Positions 1,232 through 14,486 of a DNA stretch of 16,445 nt are shown here, piece by piece (position 1 is the first letter of the stretch; each line of letters opens with the position of its first letter). Origin of the DNA: Archangium sp. (GTDB lineage Bacteria > Myxococcota > Myxococcia > Myxococcales > Myxococcaceae); contig JAEUJT010000364.1 in the NCBI GenBank assembly GCA_016793525.1, positions 1 to 16,445 on the forward strand, written 5' to 3'. Position numbers and translations under genes: made by a program. A model generated the notes under the pieces. That model worked only from the letters and a program-made list of their open reading frames with translations, did no database searches and had not been told where the DNA came from.

Positions 1232-1249
1232 TTGCCCAAAAATTGGCAA
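1232..1249. promoter_or_regulatory. Inverted repeat, candidate enhancer (upstream activating) site
   Basis: TTGCC, eight bases, GGCAA: a perfect 5-base-arm inverted repeat with an A/T-rich middle inside GC-rich DNA. Its centre lies about 85 bases upstream of the transcription start predicted from the sigma-54 box at 1300-1315, the usual distance range for binding of a Fis-type sigma-54 activator. The sequence shows the repeat; its use as the site for the activator at 9241-10194 is inference. A second, weaker repeat (CTCCA at 1253-1257, TGGAG at 1267-1271) lies closer to the promoter. Confidence 0.4.
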
Positions 1250-1299
1250 GTCCTCCATGGCGACCTTGGAGATCCACCCTGTTGGCTCAACGAAGGGAG

Positions 1300-1315
1300 T
1301 GGCACGTGAGCTGCT
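1300..1315 (+). promoter_or_regulatory. Sigma-54 (RpoN) promoter of the precursor peptide gene
   Basis: The -24 element TGGCACG is a full consensus match, followed by four bases and CTGCT, one mismatch from the -12 consensus TTGCW. The invariant GG (1301-1302) and GC (1313-1314) are exactly ten bases apart, as sigma-54 requires. Transcription should start near 1326, giving a leader of about 36 bases with a ribosome binding site before ATG 1362. The site lies inside a longer in-frame reading (from ATG 1257), which argues that the true start codon is 1362. A sigma-54 activator is encoded in the facing gene string, which supports the call. Confidence 0.72.
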
Positions 1316-1351
1316 ATCGGAATTCTCCGCTACTGACGTCAACTCAAACGG

Positions 1352-1355
1352 GGAG
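1352..1355 (+). promoter_or_regulatory. Ribosome binding site of the precursor peptide gene
   Basis: GGAG six bases before ATG 1362. It decides the start codon in favour of 1362 over the in-frame ATG at 1257, which would lie upstream of the predicted transcription start. Confidence 0.7.
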
Positions 1356-1361
1356 CGAACC

Positions 1362-1709
1362 ATGGCGAAGAACGCAAAAGGGACTGCAAAAGGCGAAGTC
1401 ACGAAGCTCAGCAAGAAGCAGATGAAGGCGATGATGGGCGGAATCAAGTGCAATGGCGTCGACTACGGTCTCAATTTGACCGTCTCTGACATTCGGGGCC
1501 CTGTTTACAGCCTCAAGCTCGGTGGCTCCACGGGCAAGCTCATCGCCGTCTGCACCGGCAACGCCACCAATTGCGTGTGCGCGAGCGGGAGCGCCGGCAT
1601 CGTCCTCACGCCTGGCGGCCTCCCCCCGCCGACGCTCTCGGGCAACACCGTGCTGCCGGGCAGTGGCGGTGGCGGTGGTATCGGTGTCGGTGGTCTCGGC
1701 CGGAAGTAG
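1362..1709 (+). CDS. Double-glycine leader secreted peptide precursor (bacteriocin/RiPP-like)
   Basis: A 115-residue protein. Residues 1-27 are a lysine-rich leader ending LSKKQMKAMMGG. Counting back from the second glycine, positions -4, -7, -12 and -15 are M, M, L and V, the hydrophobic spacing recognised by C39 peptidases. Cleavage after G27 would release an 88-residue core with four cysteines (C30, C64, C71, C73), a PPP turn near 88-90 and a glycine-rich tail (100-113) ending in R-K. There is no Sec signal peptide. An exporter with an intact C39 peptidase ends 123 bases away on the other strand, so leader processing and export by it is the natural reading. No modifying enzyme is recognised nearby. 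The product could be an antimicrobial like Gly-rich class II microcins, or a signal; nothing in the sequence separates these. It is driven by the sigma-54 promoter at 1300-1315 and ended by the terminator at 1741-1781. No named family was recognised for the core. Confidence 0.82.
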   Translation: MAKNAKGTAKGEVTKLSKKQMKAMMGGIKCNGVDYGLNLTVSDIRGPVYSLKLGGSTGKLIAVCTGNATNCVCASGSAGIVLTPGGLPPPTLSGNTVLPGSGGGGGIGVGGLGRK

Positions 1710-1740
1710 CGCGGCAGCGACGTTCCGAGCTTCTCATCGA

Positions 1741-1781
1741 AGGCCGAGATCGAGCTCACCCTCGATCTCGGTCTTTTTTTT
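1741..1781 (+). terminator. Intrinsic terminator after the precursor gene
   Basis: An 11-base perfect stem (1744-1754 with 1761-1771), extendable to 14 pairs with one G-U, closes a six-base loop and is followed by eight T (1774-1781). It begins about 30 bases after the precursor stop. The T-run is only on the plus strand, so it should stop the precursor transcript before it runs antisense into the exporter gene. It offers no equivalent stop for the minus-strand operon. Confidence 0.9.
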
Positions 1782-1832
1782 CTGTGGCTCTTCGAAGTAC
1801 GGGCCGGCTTCGAGCGACGGCGTTGTCTGCGA

Positions 1833-4800
1833 CTACGCAGACATCTGGCGGCGGAACAAATCGAAGTACAGACCGCGGCGCTCCATGAGGGCGAAGTGGT
1901 TGCCGAGCTCGACCAGGTGGCCGTTGTCGAGCACCACGATGGTGTCGGCGTGCATGATGGTGTTGAGCCGGTGCGCGATGACAATGGTTGTCTTCTTGCG
2001 CTTCTTGATGCCGCGCACGATGCGCTGCTCCGAAATGGCGTCGAGCGCCGAGGTCGCCTCGTCCATCACCAGAATTGGCGGGTCTCGGTAAAACGCGCGC
2101 GCGATGTTGAGGCGCTGCCGCTGCCCACCCGACAGCCCCGAGCCACCTTCGCCCAGCAGCGTCGAGTAGCCGTCGGGCAGCTTGGCGATGAATTCGTGCG
2201 CGTCGGCGGCCACCGCGGCCTCCATCACTCGGTTGAATGACGGGCTGGGGTCTCCGAGCGCGATGTTCTCGAGAATGCTGCCCGAGAAGACGCTGTTGTC
2301 TTGAACGATGACGCCCACCTGGCGGCGCACCCAGTCGAGCGGCGCCTGCGAGGTGTCGACGCCGTCGATGAACACCTTGCCCTGCGTCGGCGCGTAGAGG
2401 TGGTTGATCATGTACCCGAGCGTCGTCTTGCCCGAGCCGCTGCGCCCCACGAAGGCCACCGTCGAGCCTGGCTCGACCTTGATCGAGATGTCTTCGAGCA
2501 CCTGCGGCGACAAGTCTCCGCCGTACTGGAAGCCAACGCCGCGCAGCTCGATGCCTCCCTTGGCCGTCGACGGCGGCGGGGCCACATCGTCGCCCTCTTC
2601 GTCGCGCTCTTCTGACGGCGAGGTCACCACGTCGTCGATGCGCGTCAGCGAGCGCGACAGCTCCTTCATCGACGACCACTCCTGCACGATGGAAAAGAGC
2701 GGCCCCAGCACGCTGCCGAGGAGGGTGTTCACCGCCACCACCTGGCCCAGCGTCAGCTCTTGGCGCATGTAGAGCAGCGCCGTCACCACCAGGAACACCA
2801 GCGCCGACAGCGCCTGCAAGAAGCCGCTGAACGACTGTACGAAGCCCGACCAGTTCAAGAACTCCAGCCGCAGCTTCAGCCCCTCGGCCACCGCGTGTTG
2901 CCAGCGCCAGCGCGCCGTCACCGTGGCGTCGAGCGACTTGATGGTCTCGAGGCTGCTGAAGTGTTCGAACGTGAGGCTCGCCACCTTGCCGCCCGCCTTG
3001 AAGCCCTTGGTCAGGTTGAGGTTGAGCCGCTTGTTCATCAGCACCACCACCGCCACCAGCGGCACCAGGCACAGCACTACCAGGCCCACCAGCTTCCACT
3101 GGTAGGCCGCGAGAATGGCGATGTACGCGGTCGCGGTCAGCGCGTTGATGAGCAGCGAGGGAAACTTCGACGTCGCGAACTCCCGCACTTCGCGCAGCTG
3201 ATCGAGCCGGGTGGTGATGTCGCCTACCCGCCGCACCGCGAAGAACGCCAGCGGCAGCGACAACACGTGTTTCATGAACAGCGTCGAGAACTTCGCGTCG
3301 AGCCGGCTCGCCAGGTGCGTCGTCAGGTACCCGCGCACCCAGCTCGCCAGGCCCGACACGCCGTTGAGCACCAGCACGCCGAGCGCCAGCGCGTTGAGCA
3401 GCCCCTTCTTCTGCTCGACCAGCACCGCGTCGAACACGAACTGCAGGAACAGCGGCGTGGCCAACCCCAACACGAAGGTCAGCAGCGAGACGAGCACGAT
3501 TTCGCCCAGCTGCGCCCACGAGCCGTTGAGGAGCGCGCCGTACTTCCACAGCTCTTGCCGGCTCTCGGGGAACGTCTGCAGCCGCTCGGTGGGCTTCAGC
3601 AGCAGCGCGACCTGCGAGTAGTCTTTCTGAAAGTCGTCGAGCGAGCGCTCCACCAGGCCCATGGCCGGGTCGCCCACCTTCACCCGCTTGTCGTCGAACT
3701 CGTAGACGACCACGAAGTGGTACTCGCAGAGCGCGATGAAGGGGAGCCGCAGCCCCTCGAGCCCCTTGAGCGACGCCATCACGCCGATGGCCTCGAACCC
3801 GACGTGGCTCGCCGCCTGCTTCAGCGCCAGCATCGACGCGCCGTCTTTCGATACCTGCACCAGCGAGCGGAACGACGCGACCGTCACGTGGCGCCCGTAG
3901 AACTGGGTCACCATCGACATGCAGGCCGCGCCGCAGTCCATCTCCTCGTGCTGCAACACGATGGGCCGCTTGCGCCGGCGCAGCTTGGCCAGCTCGTCCT
4001 CGTCGCACTGAAAATGCTCGACCTCGAGCCCGTCGTCGTCGTCTTCGTCGTCGAGCACCTTGGGCGTGTCGGCGTTGGCCGGCGCCTGCGTTTGGCTCTG
4101 CTTGAGCGACTGCGACGCCTCGGCCGAGGTGAACGGGTCGGCGAACGCGAGGAACTGCTGCGCCTTGGCTGGGTTCACCAGCTGCGGCCACTGCTCGCGC
4201 GACACCAGCCACACCCGGGTGTGCGCTTTGATGTCCCAGGTCACGCCGCTCTGGCCGCCGATGAGCAGGTAGTCGCCGGGCGCGTAGCTGGCGATGACCC
4301 GCGGCCTCGGCCCCTCGGAGCTCAGCGTCAGGCCGCCCTCATGCACCACCGCCAAGAAGGCCTTCGCCGGGCGCGCCTCTGACGAGGTCTGGAGCGGGGT
4401 GAGCGCCAGCGCGGCGATGGTGAGCTCGATCTCCAGCTCGGAGAACCCAAAGAAGCGCAGGTCGGTCGCCAGCTTCTCGAGCTCGGCGTGTTCGCTGGTG
4501 CGCGTGACATAGTCGCGCAGCTTGGGCGTCTGCTCCAAGATGGTGTCGAAGGCGCCTCGAGCGAAAGACAGCACCGCGCACGGCGTCTCCGCGTACCAGT
4601 CGTTCTGCCAGTGGGTCTCGTTGGTGAGCAGCGTGCGCAGCTCGATGACCCGCCCGGCGCTCACCTGCCCGCGCGGCACGGTGCGGTCGAAGCGCGCGAA
4701 GAGCGAGACCTCGCCCGAGAAGACGAGCGACACCTGGTTCGGCTGGGTCGAGCGCTTGATCGGCTGGCCCGCCGAGTACGCCTCGAAGGTCGCGTCGCTC

Positions 4801-4889
4801 AGCAGCAGCTGCCGCTGCGCCGGGGTGAGCAGCACCGCCAGCGACCATCGCGCCTCGAGCTGCGCCGCTGTGGGGAGGTTCGCCGCCAT
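1833..4889 (-). CDS. C39 peptidase-containing ABC exporter with N-terminal cNMP-binding-like domains
   Basis: 1018 residues, well above the roughly 700 usual for a C39 exporter because of an extra N-terminal half. Residues about 20-125 and 140-245 resemble two cyclic-nucleotide-binding folds, but the phosphate-binding cassette is not well kept. An acidic stretch (280-299) leads to the C39 peptidase (308-435) with catalytic C319 in DCGAAC, H391 and D407 all present. A membrane domain spans about 455-730 and the ATPase 778-1018: Walker A GRSGSGKT 815-822, LSGGQ 919-923, Walker B with E944, and H973. It should cut double-glycine leaders in the cytoplasm and export the mature peptide across the inner membrane. 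ATG 4889 is nine bases after the previous stop, with a ribosome binding site at 4894-4899. The best substrate candidate is the peptide at 1362-1709, whose gene points towards the 3' end of this one. Confidence 0.93.
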   Translation of the reverse strand: MAANLPTAAQLEARWSLAVLLTPAQRQLLLSDATFEAYSAGQPIKRSTQPNQVSLVFSGEVSLFARFDRTVPRGQVSAGRVIELRTLLTNETHWQNDWYAETPCAVLSFARGAFDTILEQTPKLRDYVTRTSEHAELEKLATDLRFFGFSELEIELTIAALALTPLQTSSEARPAKAFLAVVHEGGLTLSSEGPRPRVIASYAPGDYLLIGGQSGVTWDIKAHTRVWLVSREQWPQLVNPAKAQQFLAFADPFTSAEASQSLKQSQTQAPANADTPKVLDDEDDDDGLEVEHFQCDEDELAKLRRRKRPIVLQHEEMDCGAACMSMVTQFYGRHVTVASFRSLVQVSKDGASMLALKQAASHVGFEAIGVMASLKGLEGLRLPFIALCEYHFVVVYEFDDKRVKVGDPAMGLVERSLDDFQKDYSQVALLLKPTERLQTFPESRQELWKYGALLNGSWAQLGEIVLVSLLTFVLGLATPLFLQFVFDAVLVEQKKGLLNALALGVLVLNGVSGLASWVRGYLTTHLASRLDAKFSTLFMKHVLSLPLAFFAVRRVGDITTRLDQLREVREFATSKFPSLLINALTATAYIAILAAYQWKLVGLVVLCLVPLVAVVVLMNKRLNLNLTKGFKAGGKVASLTFEHFSSLETIKSLDATVTARWRWQHAVAEGLKLRLEFLNWSGFVQSFSGFLQALSALVFLVVTALLYMRQELTLGQVVAVNTLLGSVLGPLFSIVQEWSSMKELSRSLTRIDDVVTSPSEERDEEGDDVAPPPSTAKGGIELRGVGFQYGGDLSPQVLEDISIKVEPGSTVAFVGRSGSGKTTLGYMINHLYAPTQGKVFIDGVDTSQAPLDWVRRQVGVIVQDNSVFSGSILENIALGDPSPSFNRVMEAAVAADAHEFIAKLPDGYSTLLGEGGSGLSGGQRQRLNIARAFYRDPPILVMDEATSALDAISEQRIVRGIKKRKKTTIVIAHRLNTIMHADTIVVLDNGHLVELGNHFALMERRGLYFDLFRRQMSA

Positions 4890-4893
4890 CGCG

Positions 4894-4899
4894 TTCCTT
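4894..4899 (-). promoter_or_regulatory. Ribosome binding site overlapping the upstream stop codon
   Basis: AAGGAA, four bases before ATG 4889 and overlapping the TGA (4901-4899) of the upstream exporter gene. This supports ATG 4889 as the start and translational coupling of the two exporter subunits. Confidence 0.7.
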
Positions 4900-7800
4900 C
4901 ACGACTCCGGGGTGTTGAGCTGGTGCTCGAACAGCTCGGCGTAGTGACCGCCCCGCTCGAGCAACTCGGTGTGGGTGCCGTCTTCGACGATCTGCCCGTC
5001 GCGCATCACCAAGATGCGGTCGGCGTTGCGAATGGTGGAGAGCCGGTGCGCGATGACGATGCTCGTCTTGCCCTTGAGAATCTCGCGCATGCTGTCGACC
5101 ACCGCCTGCTCGCTCTCGGCGTCGAGCGCGCTGGTCGCCTCGTCCATGATCATGATCTGCGGCGCGCGGTAGAGCGTACGAGCGATGGCGAGCCGCTGCT
5201 TCTGGCCACCAGACAGGCCCATGCCACCTTCACCGAGGAACTGCTTCATGCCCATCGGCATCTCGTCGATGAAGCCGCTCGCGTGCGCGTCATTCGCCGC
5301 CGCCATCACCCGGGCGCCTTCGGGCGCGTCGTCGCCGTACGCAATGTTGTCTTCGAGCGTGCCCTGGAACAGGTCGTTGCCCTGCATGATGTAGCCGATC
5401 TGCCGGCGCAGCGAGGGCAGCGACACGAAGGTGCTGTCGAACTGGTCGTAGAGCATGCGCCCGCTCGACGGCCGCACGTTGCCCGCGATGAGGTTCGCCA
5501 GCGTCGTCTTGCCGCAGCCGCTGCGCCCCACGATGGCCACCACCTGCTGGGGAAAGATGGTGAGCGACACGTCGCGCAGCACCCAGTCGTTGCTCGACGG
5601 GTACTTGAAGTGCACGTGCTCGAGCTTGATTTTGCCGCGCAGGGGGAAGCAGTGGGTGACGCTCGCGCGCTCGGGCGCGAACTCTTCGGGGGCGTTGAGA
5701 ATGGTCGCCACGTTGTTCGTTGCCAGCTTGGTGCGCTGGTACTGGCCGAACAGCCCCGCGAAGCCGGTGAGCGCCCCCACCACCTGCCCCAGGTACGCGC
5801 TCGCCGCGAGAATGGCCCCCGGGCTCAAGCTGCCCTGCAACGCCAGGTTGCACACGAACCACAGCCCACCGACCCGCGCCATCGACCCGAGGAACTGCAC
5901 CGCCCCCTCGAGCGCGCTCGACTGCAGGTTCGCCGTGGTCGAGAGCCGCAGCCCGGTGACGAAGGCGTCGCAGTAGCGGCGCAACATCGCCTTCTCGGCC
6001 CGTGAGGCCTTCACCGTGGTGATGGCCGACAGCTGCTCGGTGACGAGGCTTTTGCGCAGCGTCTCGTAGGCGTAGGCGCCGCTCAGGCGCTTCATCACGT
6101 ACATGCCCGCGCCGATCTGAAGCGCCATCACCGTGACGCCGAGGCCCAGCGCCAGCACCGCCACCGAGGCGCTGTAGCTCGCCAGCAGCGCCACGTAGAG
6201 AAACACCGCCGCGCCCTGGGTCACCGCGTTGAGCGTGCTGCCCGACACGAAGCCGCGAATCTGCTCGAGCTCGCCGAGGCGGGTGAGCATCTCGCCCGCC
6301 TTGCGGTTCGAGAAGAACGACAGCGGCGTGCCGAGCGCCCGGCGGTAGAGCAGGCCCTGCAGGTCGTAGTCGACCTCCATCAACGCGCGCGACAGCACGC
6401 GGTTGCCCACGAAGTCGACCGCGGCTTGCAGCAGCGCCACGATGGCGTAGCCCGCCGCCAGCCCCCACAGCACCTGCGTGTCGCGCAGGGTGAGCACGTC
6501 ATCGAGCAGGTGCTCCATGAACTTCGGCTGCGCGGCGCCGAGCATCATCTCGATGAGCGACAACACCCCGACGATGATGAGCGCGGTGCGGTGCTCGAGC
6601 ACCTTCGTCGCCATGGTGGTGAGTGGCGATTCACCTCGGGCCTGAGTCAGCGAGCCCTCGAGCACCCAGCCGTCGCTCTCGAGCGCCAGGTCGGCCCAGC
6701 TCACCTCGACGAAGCCGCGCACCGGATCATGGAGGAGGAACTGGTGGCGCTTCTCGTCGTTCGCCAACAGCACGACCAACCGCTCTCCCAGCCGCGTCAG
6801 CACCGGTAACGCCAGGCCGGTGTCGGAGTCGGGCGCCCAGCGCCGCAGCCGCGTCTGCACCCCGTACGGCTCGATGCAGGTGGCCAGCCGCAACGCGGTC
6901 ACCCGGCCCAGGCCCTCGAGCTCTTCTTTGAGCGCGCCGAAGTTGCCCGACCGGCCCTTGAGCGAGAGGAAGTTCGCCACGCTTGCGGCGTAGGTGTGGT
7001 GGTCTTTCTCGGCCCGCACCAGCTCCGACAGGTCGGTGCCAAACCGCAGCTGGCTCAGCCACTTCTGCGACGCGGGTTTCCCCGGGAGCGGCGCCGCGGG
7101 GCGGTAGGCCGGGGCAACCGTCGTGCGCTCGCCCGCATACGCGAGGATGCACGGCTCGTCGTAGAGCGTCTCCAGCGTGTTCGAGTCGGGGTCGACCGAG
7201 CGCGAGAGAAAGGCGCGCAGCGGCTCGATGGGCGCCACGTGCATGCGCAGGTCTTGCAGCGGCACCGCCTCGTACGCCCAGCGGAACGGGCTCACCAGCG
7301 CCGCGCCACCGAAGTACGCGCCTTCGCCCAGCTCGACGGTGTTGCGGTCGAAGCGGTCACCCAGCTTCGTCAACCGCAGCGCGCCCGAGGCGACGAAGAT
7401 GAAGTGTTCGCGCCAGGCCTCCAACGGCCGGCCCTGCGGCACCAGCTCGGTGTCGTCGCGCACGAGCGAGAAGAGCTCGACCACTTTGTCCATCGACAGG
7501 CCGGAGTCGACCAGCGCCTGGCGAAACTTGCGCAGCCCCGCCGACGCCGTAATCAACCGCAGGTAGTGCGCCACCTGCGGGTGCCGCTCGAGCAGCTGAA
7601 TGAACTCCGCGCGCTCGAGAAACAGCACCGACGTGTTCTGCTCGGCGATGGCGGAGAAAGGGAACGAGCGGCCCAGCAGCAGCTCACGCAGCGCCAGCGA
7701 GCGCCCCGCCTTCAGAAAGCCCGCGGGCTGCGTCTCACCCCGGCGGTCGACGGTGCTCAGCTGCAGCCCGCCGGAGAGCGGGAGGATGAGCTGCTTGATC

Positions 7801-7985
7801 TCGGTGTTCTGCCGGCAGATGGCCTGGCCCTTCGCCACCACCCGAATCGCGCCGCGCTCGACCAGCAGCTTGCCCAACCCCGGCACCACCGAGAGCAGCG
7901 ACTTCGCCCAGATCTCCTCGAGAATGCGCGAGCGCCGGCCGTCGAACGTGGGCGCCGGAGCGGCTTTCGCGCTCTCAGCCCTCAA
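4899..7985 (-). CDS. ABC exporter with degenerate C39-like domain and N-terminal cNMP-binding-like domains
   Basis: 1028 residues with the same plan as its downstream neighbour. Residues about 30-145 and 160-265 look like two degenerate cyclic-nucleotide-binding folds. Residues about 305-445 occupy the place of the C39 peptidase, but the expected Cys position appears to be Thr331 (TYAAS in place of CGAA) and the His position Arg402; only an Asp (D420, HDPVRG) is kept. This half should bind leaders or act structurally without cutting. A membrane domain spans about 460-740. The ATPase is complete: Walker A GRSGCGKT 820-827, LSGGQ 924-928, Walker B D948-E949, H980. The start is TTG 7985, overlapping the preceding stop as TTGA, so translation is probably coupled. 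Two-ABC-protein bacteriocin export loci (the NHLM type) also pair a peptidase-bearing and a peptidase-free subunit, and these two may form a heterodimer. That assignment is inference. Confidence 0.9.
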   Translation of the reverse strand: MRAESAKAAPAPTFDGRRSRILEEIWAKSLLSVVPGLGKLLVERGAIRVVAKGQAICRQNTEIKQLILPLSGGLQLSTVDRRGETQPAGFLKAGRSLALRELLLGRSFPFSAIAEQNTSVLFLERAEFIQLLERHPQVAHYLRLITASAGLRKFRQALVDSGLSMDKVVELFSLVRDDTELVPQGRPLEAWREHFIFVASGALRLTKLGDRFDRNTVELGEGAYFGGAALVSPFRWAYEAVPLQDLRMHVAPIEPLRAFLSRSVDPDSNTLETLYDEPCILAYAGERTTVAPAYRPAAPLPGKPASQKWLSQLRFGTDLSELVRAEKDHHTYAASVANFLSLKGRSGNFGALKEELEGLGRVTALRLATCIEPYGVQTRLRRWAPDSDTGLALPVLTRLGERLVVLLANDEKRHQFLLHDPVRGFVEVSWADLALESDGWVLEGSLTQARGESPLTTMATKVLEHRTALIIVGVLSLIEMMLGAAQPKFMEHLLDDVLTLRDTQVLWGLAAGYAIVALLQAAVDFVGNRVLSRALMEVDYDLQGLLYRRALGTPLSFFSNRKAGEMLTRLGELEQIRGFVSGSTLNAVTQGAAVFLYVALLASYSASVAVLALGLGVTVMALQIGAGMYVMKRLSGAYAYETLRKSLVTEQLSAITTVKASRAEKAMLRRYCDAFVTGLRLSTTANLQSSALEGAVQFLGSMARVGGLWFVCNLALQGSLSPGAILAASAYLGQVVGALTGFAGLFGQYQRTKLATNNVATILNAPEEFAPERASVTHCFPLRGKIKLEHVHFKYPSSNDWVLRDVSLTIFPQQVVAIVGRSGCGKTTLANLIAGNVRPSSGRMLYDQFDSTFVSLPSLRRQIGYIMQGNDLFQGTLEDNIAYGDDAPEGARVMAAANDAHASGFIDEMPMGMKQFLGEGGMGLSGGQKQRLAIARTLYRAPQIMIMDEATSALDAESEQAVVDSMREILKGKTSIVIAHRLSTIRNADRILVMRDGQIVEDGTHTELLERGGHYAELFEHQLNTPES

Positions 7986-9226
7986 TTGCGCACCAACTCG
8001 TCACCCACGTTGAGCAGCTTGCGCACCGCCACCGAGAGCACCGACTCGTGGCGGGTGACGACGAGGCCCTCGAGCGCCATGCCCAAGCGAAAAGGGTAGA
8101 CCGTGCCCCCGCGCTGAAAGGCCTGGGTCTCGAGCCGCACCCGCACCGGGTACATGATCTGCCCGCTGTCTTTCGCCGCCAACCCGGTCGCCGGCACCGA
8201 TTCGACCACGCCTCGCGCCACGCCGAACTGCCGCTCGGGCAGCGCCTCGAGCTTCACCACCACGGGCATTCCCTCGCGCACCTCGGCGATGTCTTTGTTG
8301 GCGATGTTCAGCTCGGCCACCAGCGGCGAGTTGAGCGGCACGAGCTGGAGCAGGTCTGAGCCGGCGCCCACCAGCTCGCCCCGCCCGCTGACTTTGATCT
8401 GCGTCACCACGCCGTCGATGGGCGCCACCGCTTTTTGCTGCGCGCGGAACTGGTCGAGCGTGGGCCCCAGCGACGCCAGCCGCACCTCGAGCCGGTCGAG
8501 CGTGCGGTCGACCGCCGACTGGAGCGACTGCTGCCGGTCGTAGATGAGGCTCTTCGCAGAGGACACCTCGTTGCCGAGCTGCTCGAGCTGGGGGGCCAAC
8601 ATCTCCTCGGCGTGGCGCCGGCGAATCTCCGCGATCTTCGCGCTCGCGACCGCGATTCGGCGGCGGGCCTCGGCGGTCATCTCAGGGAGCCGCGCCAGCT
8701 GCTGCACCGACGTCGCCAGGTCTTTGAACAGGTCTTGTACGCCGACGAGCGTCTCGCGAATGCCGCCCTGGTTTTCGGTGACGAAGCCATTTTGCGCGAG
8801 CTTCTCGACCCGTACCGTGCAGTCGGTGCAGGCGCCCTTTCGCAGCGCCGTCGCCACCAACAGCGCCTGCTGGAGATCTCCGCGCAGCCGCGTGTGCTCG
8901 TCTTCGGTGAGCTGATCATCGGCCACCACCAGCACGTCGCCCTGGTGCACCACCTGGCTTTCTTTCACCAGGAGCTCGCCGATGCGAATGCTCGTCTTCA
9001 GCCGAATCGGCACCGGCGGCTGCTCGCTCACCAACCCGCCGCGCGCGCTGATGGAAATGGCGATGGTGGCCCACGCGCCGTAGGCGACGAGCAGCGCCAG
9101 CGACGCAAGCAACACGTAGACGAAGCCGCGAATGAAGACCCGCGGGCGCTCGCGCACGAACTCGTCGGTCGCCCAGGGGACGCTCGTAGCCTCGTACACC
9201 AGGGTCTTGTCGCGCCGGCTCGCCAT
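7982..9226 (-). CDS. HlyD-family membrane fusion (periplasmic adaptor) protein
   Basis: 414 residues from ATG 9226. A cytoplasmic N-terminus of about 30 residues precedes one membrane segment (31-53), then a biotinyl-lipoyl-like half near 65-102, a helical hairpin rich in A, E, L and R (about 105-262), the second lipoyl half (265-295, APIDGVVTQIKVSGRGELV) and a beta-barrel region to the C-terminus. This is the standard layout of adaptors that join an inner-membrane ABC exporter to an outer-membrane TolC-like channel. No channel gene is in the window. An unusual CTDC pair (C133, C136) sits within the hairpin. Readings upstream of 9226 overlap the activator gene and do not resemble the family. 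The gene lies 14 bases after the activator stop and overlaps the next exporter gene by TTGA, so it is firmly in the operon. Confidence 0.92.
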   Translation of the reverse strand: MASRRDKTLVYEATSVPWATDEFVRERPRVFIRGFVYVLLASLALLVAYGAWATIAISISARGGLVSEQPPVPIRLKTSIRIGELLVKESQVVHQGDVLVVADDQLTEDEHTRLRGDLQQALLVATALRKGACTDCTVRVEKLAQNGFVTENQGGIRETLVGVQDLFKDLATSVQQLARLPEMTAEARRRIAVASAKIAEIRRRHAEEMLAPQLEQLGNEVSSAKSLIYDRQQSLQSAVDRTLDRLEVRLASLGPTLDQFRAQQKAVAPIDGVVTQIKVSGRGELVGAGSDLLQLVPLNSPLVAELNIANKDIAEVREGMPVVVKLEALPERQFGVARGVVESVPATGLAAKDSGQIMYPVRVRLETQAFQRGGTVYPFRLGMALEGLVVTRHESVLSVAVRKLLNVGDELVRN

Positions 9227-9240
9227 GTCTGAAGCGCGTT

Positions 9241-10194
9241 CTACCCGATGCCGTACTTCTTCAACCGATTCTGAAGCGTCTGGCGCGGCAGCTTGAGCCG
9301 ACGGGCCACCTCGGAGTGGTTGTTCTCGCACTGGCGCAGCGCCACCTCGAGCAGCGACTTCTCGATCTCCTCGAGCGTCTCGTCGAGCCCGCGGCCGCTC
9401 GAGAAGCTTTCGTCGATGATGGCGCGCAGCCCGTTTTTGGTGCGGCGGGGGCGAATGAACTCGGCGCCGATGATCGAGGTGTCGGACAGCGCCACCGCGC
9501 GTTCGATGGTGTGCTCGAGCTCGCGAATGTTGCCCGGCCACGAGTGCTCCACCAGCGCCCGCATCGTCTCCTCGCTCAGCTGCTTGCGCGTGCCGGTGCT
9601 GCGCGCCAACCGGTCGAGGAAATACTGGGCCAGGGGCACGACGTCTTCGCGGCGCTGGCGCAGCGGCGGCACGTCGATTTGAACCACGTTGATGCGGTAG
9701 TAGAGGTCTTCGCGAAACAGCCCCTTGTCGATGAGCTCCTCGAGGTTGCGGTGGGTCGCGCAGATGAGCCGGAAGTTCGTCTGCCGCGGGGTATTTTCGC
9801 CGAGCCGCTCATAGCGGCGCTCCTGAATGACGCGCAGCAGCTTCACCTGAATCGACGCCGGCAGGTCGCCGATTTCGTCGAGGAACAGCGTGCCGCCGTT
9901 CGCCAACTCGACCCGCCCCTCGCGCGCCGTCTTCGCTCCCGTGAAGGCGCCAGCGGCGTGGCCGAAGAGCTCGGCCTCCATCAAATCGAAGGGAATGGCC
10001 GACAGGTTGGCGGTGACGAAGGGCGACTCCGCGCGGTGGCTCAGCCGGTGCGCCTCCTGCGCCAGGCGGCTCTTGCCCACGCCCGTCTCGCCGAGAATGG
10101 GAATGCTGGAGTCGGTCGGGGCCACCCGAGCCAACAGGTTGTGCACCGCGATGAGCGCGGTGGAAGGAGGGAGCGCCTCGGAAGGGTCGTTCAT
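9241..10194 (-). CDS. Sigma-54-dependent transcriptional activator without sensory domain
   Basis: 317 residues from ATG 10194. It opens almost directly with the AAA+ domain: Walker A GETGVGKS at 35-42, the sigma-54-contacting loop GAFTGA at 82-87, Walker B LFLDEIGD at 103-110. A Fis-type helix-turn-helix lies at the C-terminus (about 292-312, EVARRLKLPRQTLQNRLKK). There is no receiver, GAF or PAS domain, so control must come from a partner protein, from expression level or from a small molecule acting on the AAA+ domain, as for PspF-type activators. An alternative GTG start at 10248 would add 18 residues (335 in total); both lack a convincing Shine-Dalgarno, and ATG 10194 best fits the family's domain boundary. 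As a gene linked to the exporter operon, its likely target is the sigma-54 promoter at 1300-1315. Confidence 0.93.
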   Translation of the reverse strand: MNDPSEALPPSTALIAVHNLLARVAPTDSSIPILGETGVGKSRLAQEAHRLSHRAESPFVTANLSAIPFDLMEAELFGHAAGAFTGAKTAREGRVELANGGTLFLDEIGDLPASIQVKLLRVIQERRYERLGENTPRQTNFRLICATHRNLEELIDKGLFREDLYYRINVVQIDVPPLRQRREDVVPLAQYFLDRLARSTGTRKQLSEETMRALVEHSWPGNIRELEHTIERAVALSDTSIIGAEFIRPRRTKNGLRAIIDESFSSGRGLDETLEEIEKSLLEVALRQCENNHSEVARRLKLPRQTLQNRLKKYGIG

Positions 10195-10281
10195 CTCAGA
10201 TGAAAATCGCGGGCGACGTTGGAAGGACTCCTGCCGACTCTTGGGCACCGGCTGCCTGAGTTACGGCGCGATAAAGTGTAG

Positions 10282-10599
10282 CTAACCCTCGTGATCCAAC
10301 GCACACCGCAGCGTGGCAAAAGCCCAGCCACCGCGCAGATGACGAAGGTCGGCGTTCGACAGCTTCAGCGGCCCCGAGCCGTCGAGCGAACCGGTCGTGG
10401 CGAAGCGTAACCACGCCGCTTCGCTGAGGGTTTGGGCCAGGCCCGAGAGCCAGCCGATGCTCGACTCGGTGATCTTCTCGACGATGGGTGACCCCGTTCC
10501 CAAGTGCCGGGTGACGATGTCGCGCAATGTGCGCCAGTCGAGTTGGCGTTGAGCCAGGGCGCGTCGCAACGCCAGCGCATCTTTTTCCTGCGGAGTCAT
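10282..10599 (-). CDS. Hypothetical protein, 105 residues
   Basis: Not recognised. The protein is soluble by appearance, with no signal peptide or membrane segment: a charged helical N-terminus (about 1-35, rich in R, Q, L), a middle with ITESSIGWLSGLAQTLSE and a C-terminus with two Trp and LRCALDHEG. Third codon positions are mostly G or C, as in the neighbouring genes, which argues for a real gene. The same frame stays open far upstream under the glycosyltransferase, but that part looks like antisense; ATG 10599 is the first start clear of it. It lies on the operon strand, 87 bases before the activator start used here (33 before the alternative GTG), so it may be the first gene of the export operon. 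One could imagine it as a control partner for the sensor-less activator, but nothing in the sequence shows that. Confidence 0.6.
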   Translation of the reverse strand: MTPQEKDALALRRALAQRQLDWRTLRDIVTRHLGTGSPIVEKITESSIGWLSGLAQTLSEAAWLRFATTGSLDGSGPLKLSNADLRHLRGGWAFATLRCALDHEG

Positions 10600-10610
10600 G
10601 AGAAGACGGA

Positions 10611-10628
10611 ACGCAACAAGCGCGCCAA
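10611..10628 (-). promoter_or_regulatory. Possible sigma-54 promoter of the export operon
   Basis: Read on the minus strand, TTGGCGCG, four bases, TTGC. The GG (10626-10625) and GC (10614-10613) are ten bases apart; the -12 box is intact and the -24 box differs from TGGCACG by one base. Transcription would start near 10601, only about two bases before ATG 10599, so that gene would be leaderless or the true first product would begin further on. That misfit and the GC-rich background keep this tentative. Confidence 0.35.
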
Positions 10629-10671
10629 CGCCGTTGAACTTGCTGGGGCCTTCTCGTATGGGCGCCGCGAC

Positions 10672-11625
10672 ATGGCGCTCTGCTCGGTAGTCATTCCCGT
10701 CTATCGCAACGAGGAGTCGCTCACGGCGCTGCTGGCCGAGCTGACCGACCTGGCCACCTCGATGCGCGACGAGCTCGAGGTGGTGTTCGTCGTCGACGGC
10801 AGCCCCGACGCGTCGGCCGACGTGCTGCGGCGGCTGCTTCCCCAGGCGTCGTTCCGGTCGCAGCTGTTGCTGCACTCGCGCAACTACGGCGCGGCGGCGG
10901 CGGTGCGCACCGGGCTCCAGGCGGCGCGCGGGGCGTACATCGGGGTGATGGCGGCCGACCTCCAGGAGCCCGCGTCGTTGATGACGGGCTTCTTCGCCAA
11001 GCTCCAGGCGGGCCACGACGTGGCGGTGGGCATGCGCACCGAGCGCGACGACCCGGCGCTGACCGCGCTGAACGCGAAGATTTTCTGGTCGTTTTTTCGC
11101 CGCTTCATCATGCCGGAGATCCCCGAGGGTGGCGTCGACGTGTTCGGCCTCAGCGCCCGCGCCCGCGACGCGCTGGTGTCGCTGCCCGAGCGCAACAGTT
11201 CCCTCGTCGCCCAACTCTTTTGGATCGGCTTCACCCGCACCGAAGTGCCGTACGCGCGGCGGCCGCGGCCCTTCGGCACCTCGGCGTGGACCTTCAAGAA
11301 GAAGGTCCAGTACCTGCTCGACAGCGTCTACAACTTCACCGACCTGCCGATTCGGTTCCTCCTCTTCATCGGCCTCGGTGCCATGGCGCTGGCCTTCGTC
11401 GGCGCGGCCACGGTGCTCATCGGCCGCCTGCTCGGCGAGATTCCGGTGCGCGGCTACACCCCGACGGTGTTGATCATCGTCTTCTTCGGAGGGCTCAACT
11501 CGTTTGGCCTCGGCATCATCGGCCAATACGTGTGGCGCACCTTCGAGAACACCAAGCAGCGGCCGCTCAGCATCGTCAGCGACCGGCTGGCGTTCGAGGC
11601 TACTTCTTCCCCACCACCTTCTTGA
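10672..11625 (+). CDS. GT2-family membrane glycosyltransferase (GtrB/DPM1-like)
   Basis: 317 residues from ATG 10672. The N-terminus CSVVIPVYRNEESL is the classical GT-A opening. VVDGSPDAS (40-48) stands where the family usually has DDGSxD, and ADLQEP (95-100) is the metal and nucleotide-sugar site. RRPRPFGTSAWTFKKK (196-211) matches the acceptor-side signature, and two membrane segments (about 228-252 and 263-287) close the protein. Such enzymes move a sugar from a nucleotide donor to polyprenyl phosphate at the inner membrane for surface polysaccharide or glycoprotein assembly; donor and acceptor are unknown here. An in-frame extension upstream to 10504 overlaps the opposite gene and does not resemble the family. 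No strong ribosome binding site is seen. It stands alone on its strand, 72 bases from the divergent hypothetical gene, and its 3' end overlaps the Hsp70-fusion gene by 26 bases. Confidence 0.92.
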   Translation: MALCSVVIPVYRNEESLTALLAELTDLATSMRDELEVVFVVDGSPDASADVLRRLLPQASFRSQLLLHSRNYGAAAAVRTGLQAARGAYIGVMAADLQEPASLMTGFFAKLQAGHDVAVGMRTERDDPALTALNAKIFWSFFRRFIMPEIPEGGVDVFGLSARARDALVSLPERNSSLVAQLFWIGFTRTEVPYARRPRPFGTSAWTFKKKVQYLLDSVYNFTDLPIRFLLFIGLGAMALAFVGAATVLIGRLLGEIPVRGYTPTVLIIVFFGGLNSFGLGIIGQYVWRTFENTKQRPLSIVSDRLAFEATSSPPPS

Positions 11626-14401
11626 GGAACTTCCAGAAGCGGCCGCCGCGCGAGGCGAGCTCTTCGGCGCGCTTCTCTTCGGCGGCGTTCGGCTTGGTCT
11701 GCGTCACCCCCAGCCGCTGGCGAATCTCGTCGGGGCTGTAGCGGGTCGCCAAGGTGCTGGAGAAGCTCTTGCGGGTGCGCAGCTCCCGCGCGTCGACGTG
11801 CACCACGCACTCGCCGTCGACTCGCACCGTCACCATGGCCGTCACCGCGCCTTTGGGGCCTTTGGGGAGCCCCTCGATGCGCAGCGTGCCGAGGTACTCG
11901 TTGGCCGCGGCGTTGGTGTCTTCACCTTGAAAGAGCTCGATCTCGATGAAGGTCTCGTCGTCCCGCGCGGTGGAGATGTTGAACGACTTGGTCGCCGGCA
12001 GCGGGGCGTTGCGCTCGATGACCCGCTTGAAGGCCCCGCCCTGCGCGCCGTAGCCGATGGTCATCGGCACCACGTCGATGAGCACCACGCTCGACACCTT
12101 GTCGACGGTGCCAGCGAAGAGCGCCGCGCCCAGGGCCACCGCCTCGTCGGCGTTCACGCTGGCGTGCGGCGTCTTGTTGAAGAGCGTCTTCAGCCGGTCG
12201 CGCACCGCCGGCATGCGGCTCATGCCTCCGACGAGAATGATGTCGTCGACGTCGGCCGGCTTGAGCGAGCCGCCGGTGAGCACCTCGCGCACGACCTCGA
12301 GCGTGCGGTCGACCAGCGGCTTGCACGCGGCGTTGAGCTCGTCGCGGGTCAACGTGCCCTTGAGGTCGAGGGGAATGCCCGACGGCAACATCTGCAGCAT
12401 CGGGAGGCTCAGGTCGAACGAGGTGCGCTCCGACAGCGCCACCTTCGCGCGCTCGGCCAGCTCGGTGACGCGAGACAGCGCCACCGCGTCGCCGGAGAAG
12501 GGCTCGCTGTGCTGGCTCTGGAACTTCTGCAGCAGCAGGTCGACGATCTGGTTGTCGAAGTCGATGCCGCCCAGGAAGATGTCTCCGCCCGTCGACAGCA
12601 CCTCGAACACGTTCTTGTCGATGCGCAGCAGCGTGGCGTCGAAGGTGCCGCCGCCCAGGTCGTACACCAGCACCTTGCGCGACAGCTCGCGGTTCAACCC
12701 GAAGGCCAGCGCCGCCGCGGTCGGCTCGTTGAGCACGCGCTCGACCTTGAGGCCGGCCATCGCCGCGGCTTTGCGCACCGCCTCGCGCTGCTGGTCGGAG
12801 TAGTACGCCGGGCAGGTGATGACCGCGCGGCTCACCGGGCGCCCGAGGTGTTGCTCCGCCATGGCCTTGCACTCGCGCAGCACCAGGCCCTGCACCTCTT
12901 CGAGCGCCAGCGGCTGCCCACCCAACGTCACCGCCGCCTTACCGTCGGGGCCGGCCACGATGTCGTAGTGGAAGCGCTCCTTCACCGTGCGCACCGTCGG
13001 CGTGTCGAAGTCGCGACCCACCAGGCGTTTGGCGCCGTAGATGCTCTGGTTCGGGTTGAGCACCATTTGCGCTTTGGCGCGGTGGCCCACCAGCAGCCCG
13101 TGTTTCCCCAGCGCCACCACGGAGGGAATCGTGTTGTACCCGTCTTTCGACGCCAGAATCTGCGGCCGGCCGTTGCTGAGAATGGCGCAACACGAGTTGG
13201 TGGTGCCGAGGTCGATGCCCACCACCGGCCCGCCCGGGTCGATGCTCGCCGGCGGCTGCAGGTAGACCGGACGGCCCGGGGCCCGGCGCGTCAGGTGCGG
13301 CGCGATGGGCAGCTGCTGGAGCAGTGCGGGCACCTCAGACGCCGACGCGGTGGGGTCGGTGCGGGTGCCGCGCCTCAGCTCGGGCAGCGCGGCTTCATCG
13401 GTGGGGGCGGGCGGTGCCTGCACCAGCGGAGGCGGGGCGGCGGGGCTCCTGCTCGGCACCGGTTTGGCGACCGGTGGTGCCGATGGCCTCGGTGGCGCAG
13501 GTGCCTGGGCCGCGGCCCGTGGTGCCGGCGCGGCGGCAGGCTTGGTCGGAGGTGCCTTCGCCGCCGGTGCTGCAGCGGAGCGCTCGATCTCCAGCTCGAG
13601 CGACGAGTCGTCGTCGCTGAGATCGAAATCGATGGTCGCGGGCGTCTTGCTGGCCAGCTTCGGCGCTGGTTTCGAGGGAGGCGCCTTGGCGGCGGGCTTG
13701 GGTGCTGGCTTCGGAGGAGGTGTGCCCTTGCCGTGGGTCGGGCGATCGAGATCGAGCTCGAGCGGGGCATCGTCTTCGCCGATGTCGAGGTCGATTTCGA
13801 AGCTGCCGGTCCGCACATCTGTCGCCGGTCGCGGCGCGGGGGGCGGCGAGTCGGTGCTGGCCACCAGGGTGTCGAGCTCGATGTCGACCTCCATGTCGCT
13901 CGGCGGCGGCGGAGCGCCGAAGGAGGCGAAGGGGTTCTCTTCATCACCCTCGGGCAGCGCGGCGGGGGCCTTGGGACGAGGCGGCGGCGGTGGTTGACGA
14001 GCGGGTGGCGCGGCCCTCGAGGGGGCGCTGCCCAACATGCGGTTCACGAGCGACTGGCTAGCGGGGTCGAGCGTCTCGAACGACACGCCCATGCCGGGAG
14101 GGCCCTCGGGGTCGTTCATGCCGCGCACCCACTTCACCACCGCGCTGCCCTGCATCACCCGCGCACCCGAGGCGAGCTCGATTTTGAAGTGCACCAGCGT
14201 GCCCAAGGGCTTTGGGTCGCGCGAGCGAATGAACATGCCCCCTGGGCTCAGGTTGGTGGCGTATTTCTCAACGAACTCGTCGATGCCCGAATGCGCCAGC
14301 TTGACCAGCAGGTTGACGGCCTTGCGGTCACTCCCCGCGCGACGTTCACTCACCCGGTGATTGTGCCTTCGCTCGGGCCGCGGCGAAAGTTTCAAATCCA
14401 T
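11600..14401 (-). CDS. PilZ-like domain fused to Hsp70 (DnaK-like) chaperone
   Basis: 933 residues from ATG 14401. Residues about 17-122 form a PilZ-like domain of the Myxococcus-expanded type (ERR and DRK near the start, then NLSPGGMFIRS). Residues 125-390 are a Pro/Ala/Lys-rich low-complexity linker with acidic blocks. From about 392 an Hsp70 nucleotide-binding domain follows: GIDLGTTNSC (395-404), VYDLGGGTFDATLL (579-592) and ILVGGMSRMP (722-731). The beta substrate-binding part starts near 772 (LIDVVPMTIGYG), but the helical lid is short and ends in a basic tail (FWKFLKKVVGKK). It is probably a specialised chaperone, not the housekeeping DnaK; no DnaJ or GrpE gene is near. The PilZ part may respond to c-di-GMP, although the N-terminal RxxxR motif is not clear. 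GTG 14353 is an alternative start (917 residues). Readings upstream of 14401 cross the divergent promoter region and are rejected. Confidence 0.93.
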   Translation of the reverse strand: MDLKLSPRPERRHNHRVSERRAGSDRKAVNLLVKLAHSGIDEFVEKYATNLSPGGMFIRSRDPKPLGTLVHFKIELASGARVMQGSAVVKWVRGMNDPEGPPGMGVSFETLDPASQSLVNRMLGSAPSRAAPPARQPPPPPRPKAPAALPEGDEENPFASFGAPPPPSDMEVDIELDTLVASTDSPPPAPRPATDVRTGSFEIDLDIGEDDAPLELDLDRPTHGKGTPPPKPAPKPAAKAPPSKPAPKLASKTPATIDFDLSDDDSSLELEIERSAAAPAAKAPPTKPAAAPAPRAAAQAPAPPRPSAPPVAKPVPSRSPAAPPPLVQAPPAPTDEAALPELRRGTRTDPTASASEVPALLQQLPIAPHLTRRAPGRPVYLQPPASIDPGGPVVGIDLGTTNSCCAILSNGRPQILASKDGYNTIPSVVALGKHGLLVGHRAKAQMVLNPNQSIYGAKRLVGRDFDTPTVRTVKERFHYDIVAGPDGKAAVTLGGQPLALEEVQGLVLRECKAMAEQHLGRPVSRAVITCPAYYSDQQREAVRKAAAMAGLKVERVLNEPTAAALAFGLNRELSRKVLVYDLGGGTFDATLLRIDKNVFEVLSTGGDIFLGGIDFDNQIVDLLLQKFQSQHSEPFSGDAVALSRVTELAERAKVALSERTSFDLSLPMLQMLPSGIPLDLKGTLTRDELNAACKPLVDRTLEVVREVLTGGSLKPADVDDIILVGGMSRMPAVRDRLKTLFNKTPHASVNADEAVALGAALFAGTVDKVSSVVLIDVVPMTIGYGAQGGAFKRVIERNAPLPATKSFNISTARDDETFIEIELFQGEDTNAAANEYLGTLRIEGLPKGPKGAVTAMVTVRVDGECVVHVDARELRTRKSFSSTLATRYSPDEIRQRLGVTQTKPNAAEEKRAEELASRGGRFWKFLKKVVGKK

Positions 14402-14486
14402 CTGTTCACATTCGTCACACTGAGCGAATCGCGCGAAAGGTGAGGGACCAGCGGGCCGCTTTGGTAGATGGGCGGTCGACGACGCG
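14402..14486. other. Divergent intergenic region between PilZ-Hsp70 and WYL genes
   Basis: 85 bases carrying the start signals of two divergent genes. I find no convincing sigma-70 or sigma-54 box and no clear palindrome. WYL regulators often control adjacent genes, so an operator may lie here, but none can be named from the sequence. Confidence 0.3.

Follow-up and report, generated by a model that had tools for sequence, protein, structure and literature searches.

Does this stretch of Archangium DNA encode a single system that makes, exports and switches on a small peptide, or do its exporter, activator and small reading frames only lie side by side? Our analysis of the window, the whole stretch of 16,445 nucleotides, indicates that the locus probably produces a small peptide and exports it, with sigma-54 in control. 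The first-pass annotation had proposed such a module at 1232-10628, built of a double-glycine (GG) precursor with a sigma-54 promoter, an exporter with a live C39 domain, a second exporter with a dead one, an HlyD adaptor and a sigma-54 activator. All of these parts are found, and the GG motif of a 105-aa ORF adds to the module as first described:

1300-1315, + strand: predicted sigma-54 promoter P1, TGGCACGTGAGCTGCT; 28/30, the best score in the window
1362-1709, + strand: double-glycine precursor, 115 aa, with a leader of 27 aa (1362-1442) and a core of 88 aa (from 1443); strict GG-leader motif, in-frame codon usage
1739-1776, + strand: terminator-like hairpin and T run, 3' of the precursor; 16 pairs, statistically weak (one found against a mean of 0.8 in shuffles)
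1833-4889, - strand: ABC_A, 1018 aa; cNMP-like region, catalytically complete C39 peptidase (PF03412, 111.5 bits), ABC exporter
4899-7985, - strand: ABC_B, 1028 aa; two cNMP stretches, C39-like region without the catalytic Cys and His, ABC exporter (Pfam, alignment)
7982-9226, - strand: HlyD-type adaptor, 414 aa; PF13437 above cut-off
9241-10191, - strand: sigma-54 activator; AAA+ domain with GAFTGA (PF00158, 213 bits) and Fis-type HTH (PF02954)
10282-10599, - strand: ORF of 105 aa; strict GG motif (10327-10362, motif search); candidate second substrate or small regulator
10612-10627, - strand: predicted sigma-54 site P2, TGGCGCGCTTGTTGCG, at the head of the activator-exporter block; 27/30, second best in the window

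The activator, HlyD, ABC_B and ABC_A form a single block on the - strand that faces the precursor gene on the + strand. They are as closely packed as had been described, with 14 nt between the activator and HlyD, a 4-nt overlap of HlyD with ABC_B and 9 nt between ABC_B and ABC_A. The proposed boundaries also fall on sequence features: an inverted repeat with 5-nt arms (1232-1249) coincides with the start, and P2 fits the end at 10628. No outer-membrane channel was found among the nine window proteins scanned, which lie before 14.6 kb, and this counts against the main reading. HlyD also matches TIGR01843 at 137.2 bits, under the cut-off of 208.65.

A live and a dead C39 exporter

ABC_A fuses a catalytically complete PF03412 domain (Q313/C319/H391/D407) to an ABC half-transporter, the arrangement of a PCAT, and the solved relatives include PCAT1-type and ComA chains. 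In ABC_B, Q is replaced by A, C by T and H by R at the aligned catalytic places and D is retained, identically in its relative P0042; PF03412 gave no match to ABC_B at E ≤ 0.1. That this region of ABC_B folds like a C39 domain is weakly suggested by the alignment, together with a poor profile match (hhalign probabilities of 3.4 and 9.3%). Both cNMP stretches of ABC_B lie above the Pfam cut-off, and the one in ABC_A lies just below it (25.9 versus 27.5). ABC_A and nine aligned relatives (P0003-P0011) retain the C39 catalytic residues, which ABC_B and P0042 have lost; the Walker and H-loop residues are intact in all 12 sequences.

A second contig probably carries a similar pair of exporters, since P0003 (67% identical to ABC_A) and P0042 (65% identical to ABC_B, and its one relative) both have 31566 bases as the length of their longest contig. 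A genome-contig search with ABC_A alone reached at least 18 loci at 26-34% identity over the C-terminal part only, none of them titled as Myxococcota. TIGR02266 matched 3 of the 18 genomes behind these loci at E ≤ 0.001, none over its cut-off. Alignment A1 found one locus (31%) among viral contigs; against the phylum of G001, 25 of 200 genomes passed 1e-150, every match starting at query position 229 or later, and wide regions were taken from 15 of the 25.

Two reading frames with double-glycine motifs

The precursor leader ends LSKKQMKAMMGG (1407-1442), and the 88-aa core holds four Cys. Across the six frames of the window the strict GG-leader motif has two matches, one in the precursor and one in the 105-aa ORF; residue shuffles gave a mean of 0.04 and reached two in 0 of 500. 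At E ≤ 1 the sole match of the precursor was itself, and plasmids gave none. Neither ORF matched an NHLP or Nif11 leader at E ≤ 0.1 or any leader family above cut-off. The GG-leader precursor linked to ABC_A, likewise as for a PCAT, is thus an orphan, and its link to the exporter has no conservation support because no homologue was found, which weighs against the main reading. An alternative in-frame ATG lies upstream at 1257; with this start P1 would fall within the ORF.

As a substrate, the 105-aa ORF would split into a 91-aa leader and a 14-aa core. It has no match in Pfam, NCBIfam or plasmids. We give slightly less than an even chance to a reading for this gene only, compatible with the rest of the module, in which it is a small regulator of the activator and its GG motif arose by chance. 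Small regulators of this kind, such as PspA and HrpV, act on sensor-less activators, and the ORF lies directly upstream of the activator and nearly leaderless behind P2. Structure prediction from the one sequence, with a middling mean pLDDT of 67.6, places helices over residues 3-69, in keeping with a regulator, and the motif appeared in 97 of 200000 shuffles of the 105-aa sequence. Against this, the motif is exactly in register with that of the precursor, the same model places it by a low-confidence stretch (74-90) just ahead of a predicted final helix, and the window holds no third strict motif, only one looser match (909-944) within a flavoprotein gene.

Predicted sigma-54 sites

Sites were scored out of 30 against a weighted consensus, TGGCACGNNNNTTGCW. 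With both strands scanned, the top score in the window falls at P1, a GG-N10-GC site whose first base lies 62 nt before the precursor ATG, a spacing at which it could work. Its score was reached in 6 of 5000 dinucleotide shuffles of 1188-1361, and that of P2 in 5 of 5000 shuffles of 10603-10671, so that by position the chance of each site is about 0.1%. The two top sites of the window mark the two starts that matter, one before the precursor gene and the other where the activator-exporter block begins, each on the appropriate strand, and this placement argues for one sigma-54-controlled module. The activator has the expected PF00158 domain and HTH, and its GAFTGA loop was recognised by eye; a Pfam-type domain scan found no sensor domain in it, which would fit the unlinked cue proposed in the first-pass annotation. 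Scanning two stretches for sigma-70-type promoters found none.

No activator-binding repeat common to P1 and P2 was found, their shared words never exceeding 7-mers, and this counts against the main reading. Neither region holds an exact dyad with 6-nt arms (the repeat at 1232-1249, with 5-nt arms, falls below this test); a single near-dyad at 1253 occurs in the P1 region only. Between P2 and the start codon of the 105-aa ORF the distance is just 28 nt, which leaves the ORF with hardly any 5' leader, a further point against the main reading.

Similar loci in other lineages

Burkholderiaceae-type loci share much of this arrangement. We counted 23 (L025, L038, L039 and L073-L092), omitting L040 as a near copy of L039; L083 has the same values as L039, so the 23 are not all independent. 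The labels Burkholderiaceae-type and Pseudomonadota are inferred from named plasmid records and the NCBI lineage of L018. All 23 combine a sigma-54 activator with HlyD and a cNMP-C39 exporter, and 22 also have, on the opposite strand as in the window, a GAPW-type GG peptide headed by a sigma-54 site (score 26-30, 56-103 nt before the ATG). Shuffling the upstream regions, 21 of 22 of which are distinct, gave an expectation of 0.22 such peptides in 22 loci. At the remaining locus, L092, a site of 28 is kept and the GAPW peptide is absent; the gene looks broken. A first pass with a regular expression had flagged 28 of the 84 sites scoring at least 26 in these loci, and the recount used the GAPW motif; flagged peptides at L079 and L085 (+ strand) were rejected, as they read like an LRAT-type gene. 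The L025 activator, like that of the window, gave no sensor-domain match.

Unlike the window, these loci show no second exporter of this kind and carry PpiC and LRAT genes (Pfam in L025), and their GAPW peptides look, by eye, unlike the core of the window precursor. Identity to the window is 37-38% for the exporter and 37-40% for the activator, the latter perhaps no more than between sigma-54 activators generally, which counts against the main reading.

In a third exporter group (L093-L097), cNMP-C39 architecture was found by Pfam in 5/5 and an activator in three (L093, L094, L097), where it precedes HlyD and the exporter just as the window activator does. No GG peptide behind a sigma-54 site was identified at any of these five loci, and the two cyanobacterial cNMP-C39 loci lack the activator; both results count against the main reading. 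The only regular-expression match behind a sigma-54 site in this group, at L093, reads like a PpiC-type protein and was set aside. Ten shorter cNMP-less exporters taken as controls (L098-L107; C39-family match in 8/10, none for L100 and L105) had an activator in 0/10. ABC_A groups apart from the exporters of both the Burkholderiaceae-type loci and the third group. The activator that they have in common may therefore have been recruited repeatedly, which again weighs against the main reading.

Alternative explanations and known systems

The exporters could instead serve another, unlinked substrate; the 115-aa ORF would then only happen to lie nearby, its GG motif would be accidental, and both sigma-54 sites would be chance matches. 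The orphan state of the precursor fits this, and high scores are not rare in GC-rich DNA: shuffled whole windows reached at least 28 somewhere in 18/100 and at least 27 in 50/100, and the 23 Burkholderiaceae-type loci hold 84 sites of at least 26. We nonetheless consider it unlikely, given the positional rarity of both sites, a GG motif expected 0.04 times and the same logic at 22/23 other-lineage loci where 0.22 was expected. A very improbable alternative is an NHLM-type bacteriocin export system that adjoins a sigma-54 activator. Its three-part plan (ABC1 with peptidase, ABC2 without, HlyD) is the same, and TIGR03796 is the best NCBIfam model for ABC_A; all three window proteins, however, score under the curated cut-offs (TIGR03796, 535.7 of 853.3 bits for ABC_A; TIGR03797, 375.2 of 709.4 for ABC_B; TIGR03794, 43.7 of 156.2 for HlyD), and the two GG-motif ORFs lack a leader-family match above cut-off. 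The best NCBIfam model for ABC_B is TIGR01846, also below cut-off (451 of 725.55).

As described in excerpts of PMC2887384, NHLM/NHLP systems share with the window a pair of ABC exporters, of which one has a peptidase and the other lacks it, together with HlyD, the GG cleavage motif and long leaders. The window differs in the two cNMP stretches and C39-like remnant of ABC_B, in having no NHLP or Nif11 leader match, and in its predicted sigma-54 control, a kind of control which those excerpts do not mention. HetC of Nostoc PCC 7120 likewise joins a cNMP domain, C39 and an ABC exporter in one chain, and it binds ppGpp in vitro through its N-terminal domain, which is required in vivo; according to the passages seen of PMC10986499 its substrate is unknown, unlike the window with its candidate precursor, and these passages mention neither a sigma-54 activator nor a dead-C39 partner. 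PteB and EbfG1-4 of Synechococcus elongatus also combine a C39 exporter with linked GG peptides, with cleavage after GG or GA backed by mass spectrometry and a role in biofilms; sigma-54 control does not appear in the extracts of PMC4997328. In Myxococcus xanthus, secondary-metabolite loci are driven by sigma-54 and an activator, Nla28, which in the part of PMC7910581 available is, unlike the window activator, a response regulator with a partner kinase, its targets being polyketide and non-ribosomal peptide loci. No prior description of a module like that of the window was found in the open-access literature, among the matches listed.

The proposal of a single sigma-54-controlled peptide export module is therefore borne out in part. 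Its parts and predicted promoter positions stand; we also favour one module because a second contig probably carries a similar pair of exporters and because other-lineage loci bring together the activator, HlyD, the cNMP-C39 exporter and a GG peptide behind a sigma-54 site, an arrangement that supports the module and broadens it.

Proposed mechanism and a possible wider class

We propose that a signal not seen in the window sets the linked activator free, which would open P1 (precursor) and P2 (its own block) for RpoN transcription, creating a positive loop. The GG leader would direct the precursor to ABC_A, whose C39 domain would cut after Gly-Gly. ABC_A and ABC_B together would form the pump that sends the peptide out by way of HlyD and an outer-membrane channel with its gene elsewhere, before any action it may have. 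ABC_B, with two cNMP domains and no working C39 site, would most likely be the heterodimeric partner of ABC_A and, instead of cleaving the substrate, would hold either it or a nucleotide ligand.

The window may further be the most elaborate form seen here, with a live/dead C39 pair, cNMP gating and two substrates, of an unrecognised multi-lineage class of RpoN-switched peptide secretion modules, an idea that we hold tentatively and think rather doubtful. What would mark such a class is the linkage of a cNMP-C39 exporter to a sigma-54 activator that lacks a sensor, accompanied, in the loci where one was detected, by a GG peptide behind a sigma-54 site. If it is real, the cNMP domains of the live/dead pair may gate export through an alarmone-like ligand. 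The two window substrates would then differ greatly, one an 88-aa Cys/Gly-rich peptide and the other a 14-aa peptide with a 91-aa leader that, lying at the head of the activator operon, could serve as autoinducer of the activator.

The module would link peptide secretion with RpoN regulation, and its dead-C39 partner would offer a natural case for the role of the second subunit in a peptide exporter. A linked sigma-54 activator with a clear -24/-12 site would also provide a rule for finding the substrates of cNMP-C39 exporters, orphans included. The Burkholderiaceae-type exporter is common, occurring in 128 of 349 genomes of one family, 20 of which were taken for the locus analysis, and the idea can therefore be tested in ordinary strains.

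Gene organization and proposed mechanism

The plus-strand precursor of the window is faced by a minus-strand block that extends from the exporter ABC_A to a 105-codon ORF, and both carry a candidate sigma-54 site.

Features of the locus
1300-1315 (+), sigma-54 site P1
1362-1709 (+), precursor, a 115-codon ORF with a leader ending LSKKQMKAMMGG
1833-4889 (-), exporter ABC_A, C39 domain present
4899-7985 (-), exporter ABC_B, two cNMP stretches
7982-9226 (-), HlyD adaptor
9241-10191 (-), sigma-54 activator, AAA+ plus Fis-type HTH
10282-10599 (-), 105-codon ORF
10612-10627 (-), sigma-54 site P2

The four large genes are spaced by -4 to 14 nt, and a 90-nt gap separates the 105-codon ORF from the activator. 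The precursor core comprises 88 residues, including four Cys, and has a Gly-rich tail. In the domain-model scan, no C39 match was returned for ABC_B and no sensor-domain match for the activator. The window also encodes an unusual fusion, a 987-aa protein (11600-14563, minus strand) in which a PilZ domain at the N-terminus (TIGR02266, 86.5 bits, above the cut-off) is joined to an HSP70/DnaK-like domain at the C-terminus.

The most likely reading of this arrangement is the export module proposed in the first-pass annotation. The activator, freed by a signal outside the observed data, would open P1 and P2; the precursor would then be cut by ABC_A and pass from ABC_A/ABC_B through HlyD to an outer channel encoded elsewhere. 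The cNMP domains may modulate export. A similar N-terminal domain occurs in HetC, where it binds ppGpp rather than cAMP and is required in vivo (PMC10986499). The peptide may act in antagonism, signalling or the matrix; a biofilm role has been described for some double-glycine (GG) peptides (PMC4997328).

Several of these elements have precedents. C39 export of GG peptides is already known, as are two-ABC NHLM systems (PMC2887384), although three parts of the window, the exporters and HlyD, all score below the NHLM cut-offs (TIGR03796, TIGR03797 and TIGR03794). In M. xanthus, PKS/NRPS loci are known to be under sigma-54 control (PMC7910581). No description of sigma-54-controlled GG-peptide export appeared among the open-access matches listed.

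Sigma-54 sites

Both strands of the window were scored with a weighted sigma-54 consensus (maximum 30). P1 is the top-scoring 16-mer (28/30), 62 nt ahead of the precursor ATG, and P2 is the runner-up (27/30), directly ahead of the 105-codon ORF. Score alone is insufficient, because shuffled whole windows hold such values too (at least 28 somewhere in 18/100, at least 27 in 50/100), whereas dinucleotide shuffles of the respective upstream regions rarely do (6/5000 for P1, 5/5000 for P2); the sites are therefore meaningful by position. The 5' leader left by P1 is normal, and GGGGAG can be read by eye ahead of the ATG. Transcribed from P2, the 105-codon ORF would have almost no 5' leader, a difficulty for this gene although not for the block that follows. 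A scan of two window stretches for sigma-70-type sites found none. A hairpin with a T run lies 3' of the precursor, a kind of match that shuffles yield at a mean of 0.8.

Exporter residues and phylogeny

Twelve proteins were aligned jointly. Residues Q313, C319, H391 and D407 of the ABC_A C39 domain recur unchanged in its relatives P0003-P0011, and the same positions read A, T, R and D in ABC_B and its relative P0042; all twelve retain the Walker and H-loop residues that were checked. Profile comparison gives a weak match for the C39-like region of ABC_B. The Arg typical of cAMP-binding sites seems, by eye, absent from both exporters.

N-terminal searches scored the ~8000 candidates with most words in common. 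Among these, ABC_A residues 1-460 found 39 proteins at E<=0.001, ABC_A included, with P0003-P0011 as close relatives (37-67% identity); the more distant P0014-P0018 have cNMP and C39 domains too (precomputed Pfam). ABC_B residues 1-470 found P0042 as the sole other protein among the ~8000 candidates scored. Because P0003 and P0042 both list a longest contig of 31566 bases, we infer that an ABC_A/ABC_B-like pair probably stands together on one other contig. A 37-exporter tree resolves three groups, each with 100/100 support: ABC_A plus P0003-P0011, the Burkholderiaceae-type exporters, and one more, called here the third group; ABC_B and P0042 sit on a very long branch of unsure placement.

A candidate second substrate

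Across its six frames the window has two matches to a strict GG-leader pattern (L-S-x3-hydrophobic-x2-hydrophobic-x-G-G), one in the precursor and one in the 105-codon ORF, where the motif LSNADLRHLRGG lies 14 residues from the protein end. Residue shuffles give a mean of 0.04 occurrences (one in 20/500, two in 0/500), shuffles of the 105-aa protein hold the pattern in 97/200000, and 37 other loci (430 kb) hold two matches in total; a looser pattern adds one match, within a flavoprotein gene. Codon usage of the ORF is in frame and resembles the precursor, and is weaker than in the large genes compared. When its product is modelled from the single sequence (mean pLDDT 67.6), helices span residues 3-69, and a last helix follows a low-confidence stretch at 74-90. 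Whether the ORF encodes a second substrate or a small regulator is about an even call.

Related loci

The 17 other loci compared comprise five of the third group, ten with shorter exporters and two from cyanobacteria. All five third-group exporters carry cNMP and C39 domains, and three of the loci have an activator, which in each precedes HlyD and exporter, the order seen in the window; in the two without one, the exporters lie near a contig end. A sigma-54-headed GG peptide was searched for in these five loci and none was found, which counts against the module reading. In L097, one of the three loci with an activator, the operon (6898-13788, minus strand) starts with the activator, followed by a 250-aa ORF, HlyD and exporter. 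The shorter exporters have a cNMP match in 0/10, a C39-family match in 8/10 and an activator in 0/10 loci. The two cyanobacterial cNMP-C39 exporters are in loci without an activator; cyanobacteria are not known to have sigma-54. On Nostoc and Tolypothrix plasmids (L026, L027), a cNMP-C39 exporter and HlyD lie near aldo/keto reductase and peptidyl-prolyl isomerase genes, L027 also having an annotated HopA1-family gene.

A plasmid search led to Burkholderia stagnalis and Caballeronia, with exporter, HlyD and activator just downstream. At E<=1e-200 the exporter is present in 2/399 genomes in the order of genome G010 and 128/349 in the family of genome G465. Twenty regions spread across the exporter ranking, plus L025, L038 and L039, gave 23 loci, all with exporter, HlyD and activator (36.8-40.2% identity to the window activator). 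A GAPW-family GG-leader peptide with a sigma-54 site (score 26-30, 56-103 nt ahead of the ATG) is present in 22/23. Shuffles of the 22 upstream regions, of which 21 are distinct sequences, reached a score of 26 in 109/11000, or 0.22 loci expected. L092, as oriented, keeps a sigma-54 site of 28 at 12087 (-); the GAPW peptide is absent and the peptide gene looks broken. None of the Pfam and NCBIfam models matched the L025 GG peptide.

Additional sigma-54-headed GG peptides of other families occur in L039 and L074-L079, including a second, Asn-rich family with a C-terminal ...TINF.

Asn-rich ...TINF peptides in oriented loci
L039, 1100 (+)
L074, 235 (+) and 14648 (-)
L075, 14923 (-)
L076, 15134 (-)
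L078, 13978 (-)
L079, 14440 (-)

Divergent from the GG peptide of L025 is an LRAT-domain gene (PF04970; 13065-13595, plus strand) with its own sigma-54 site (28/30), and genes resembling it sit behind sigma-54 sites in L038, L039, L079 and L085.
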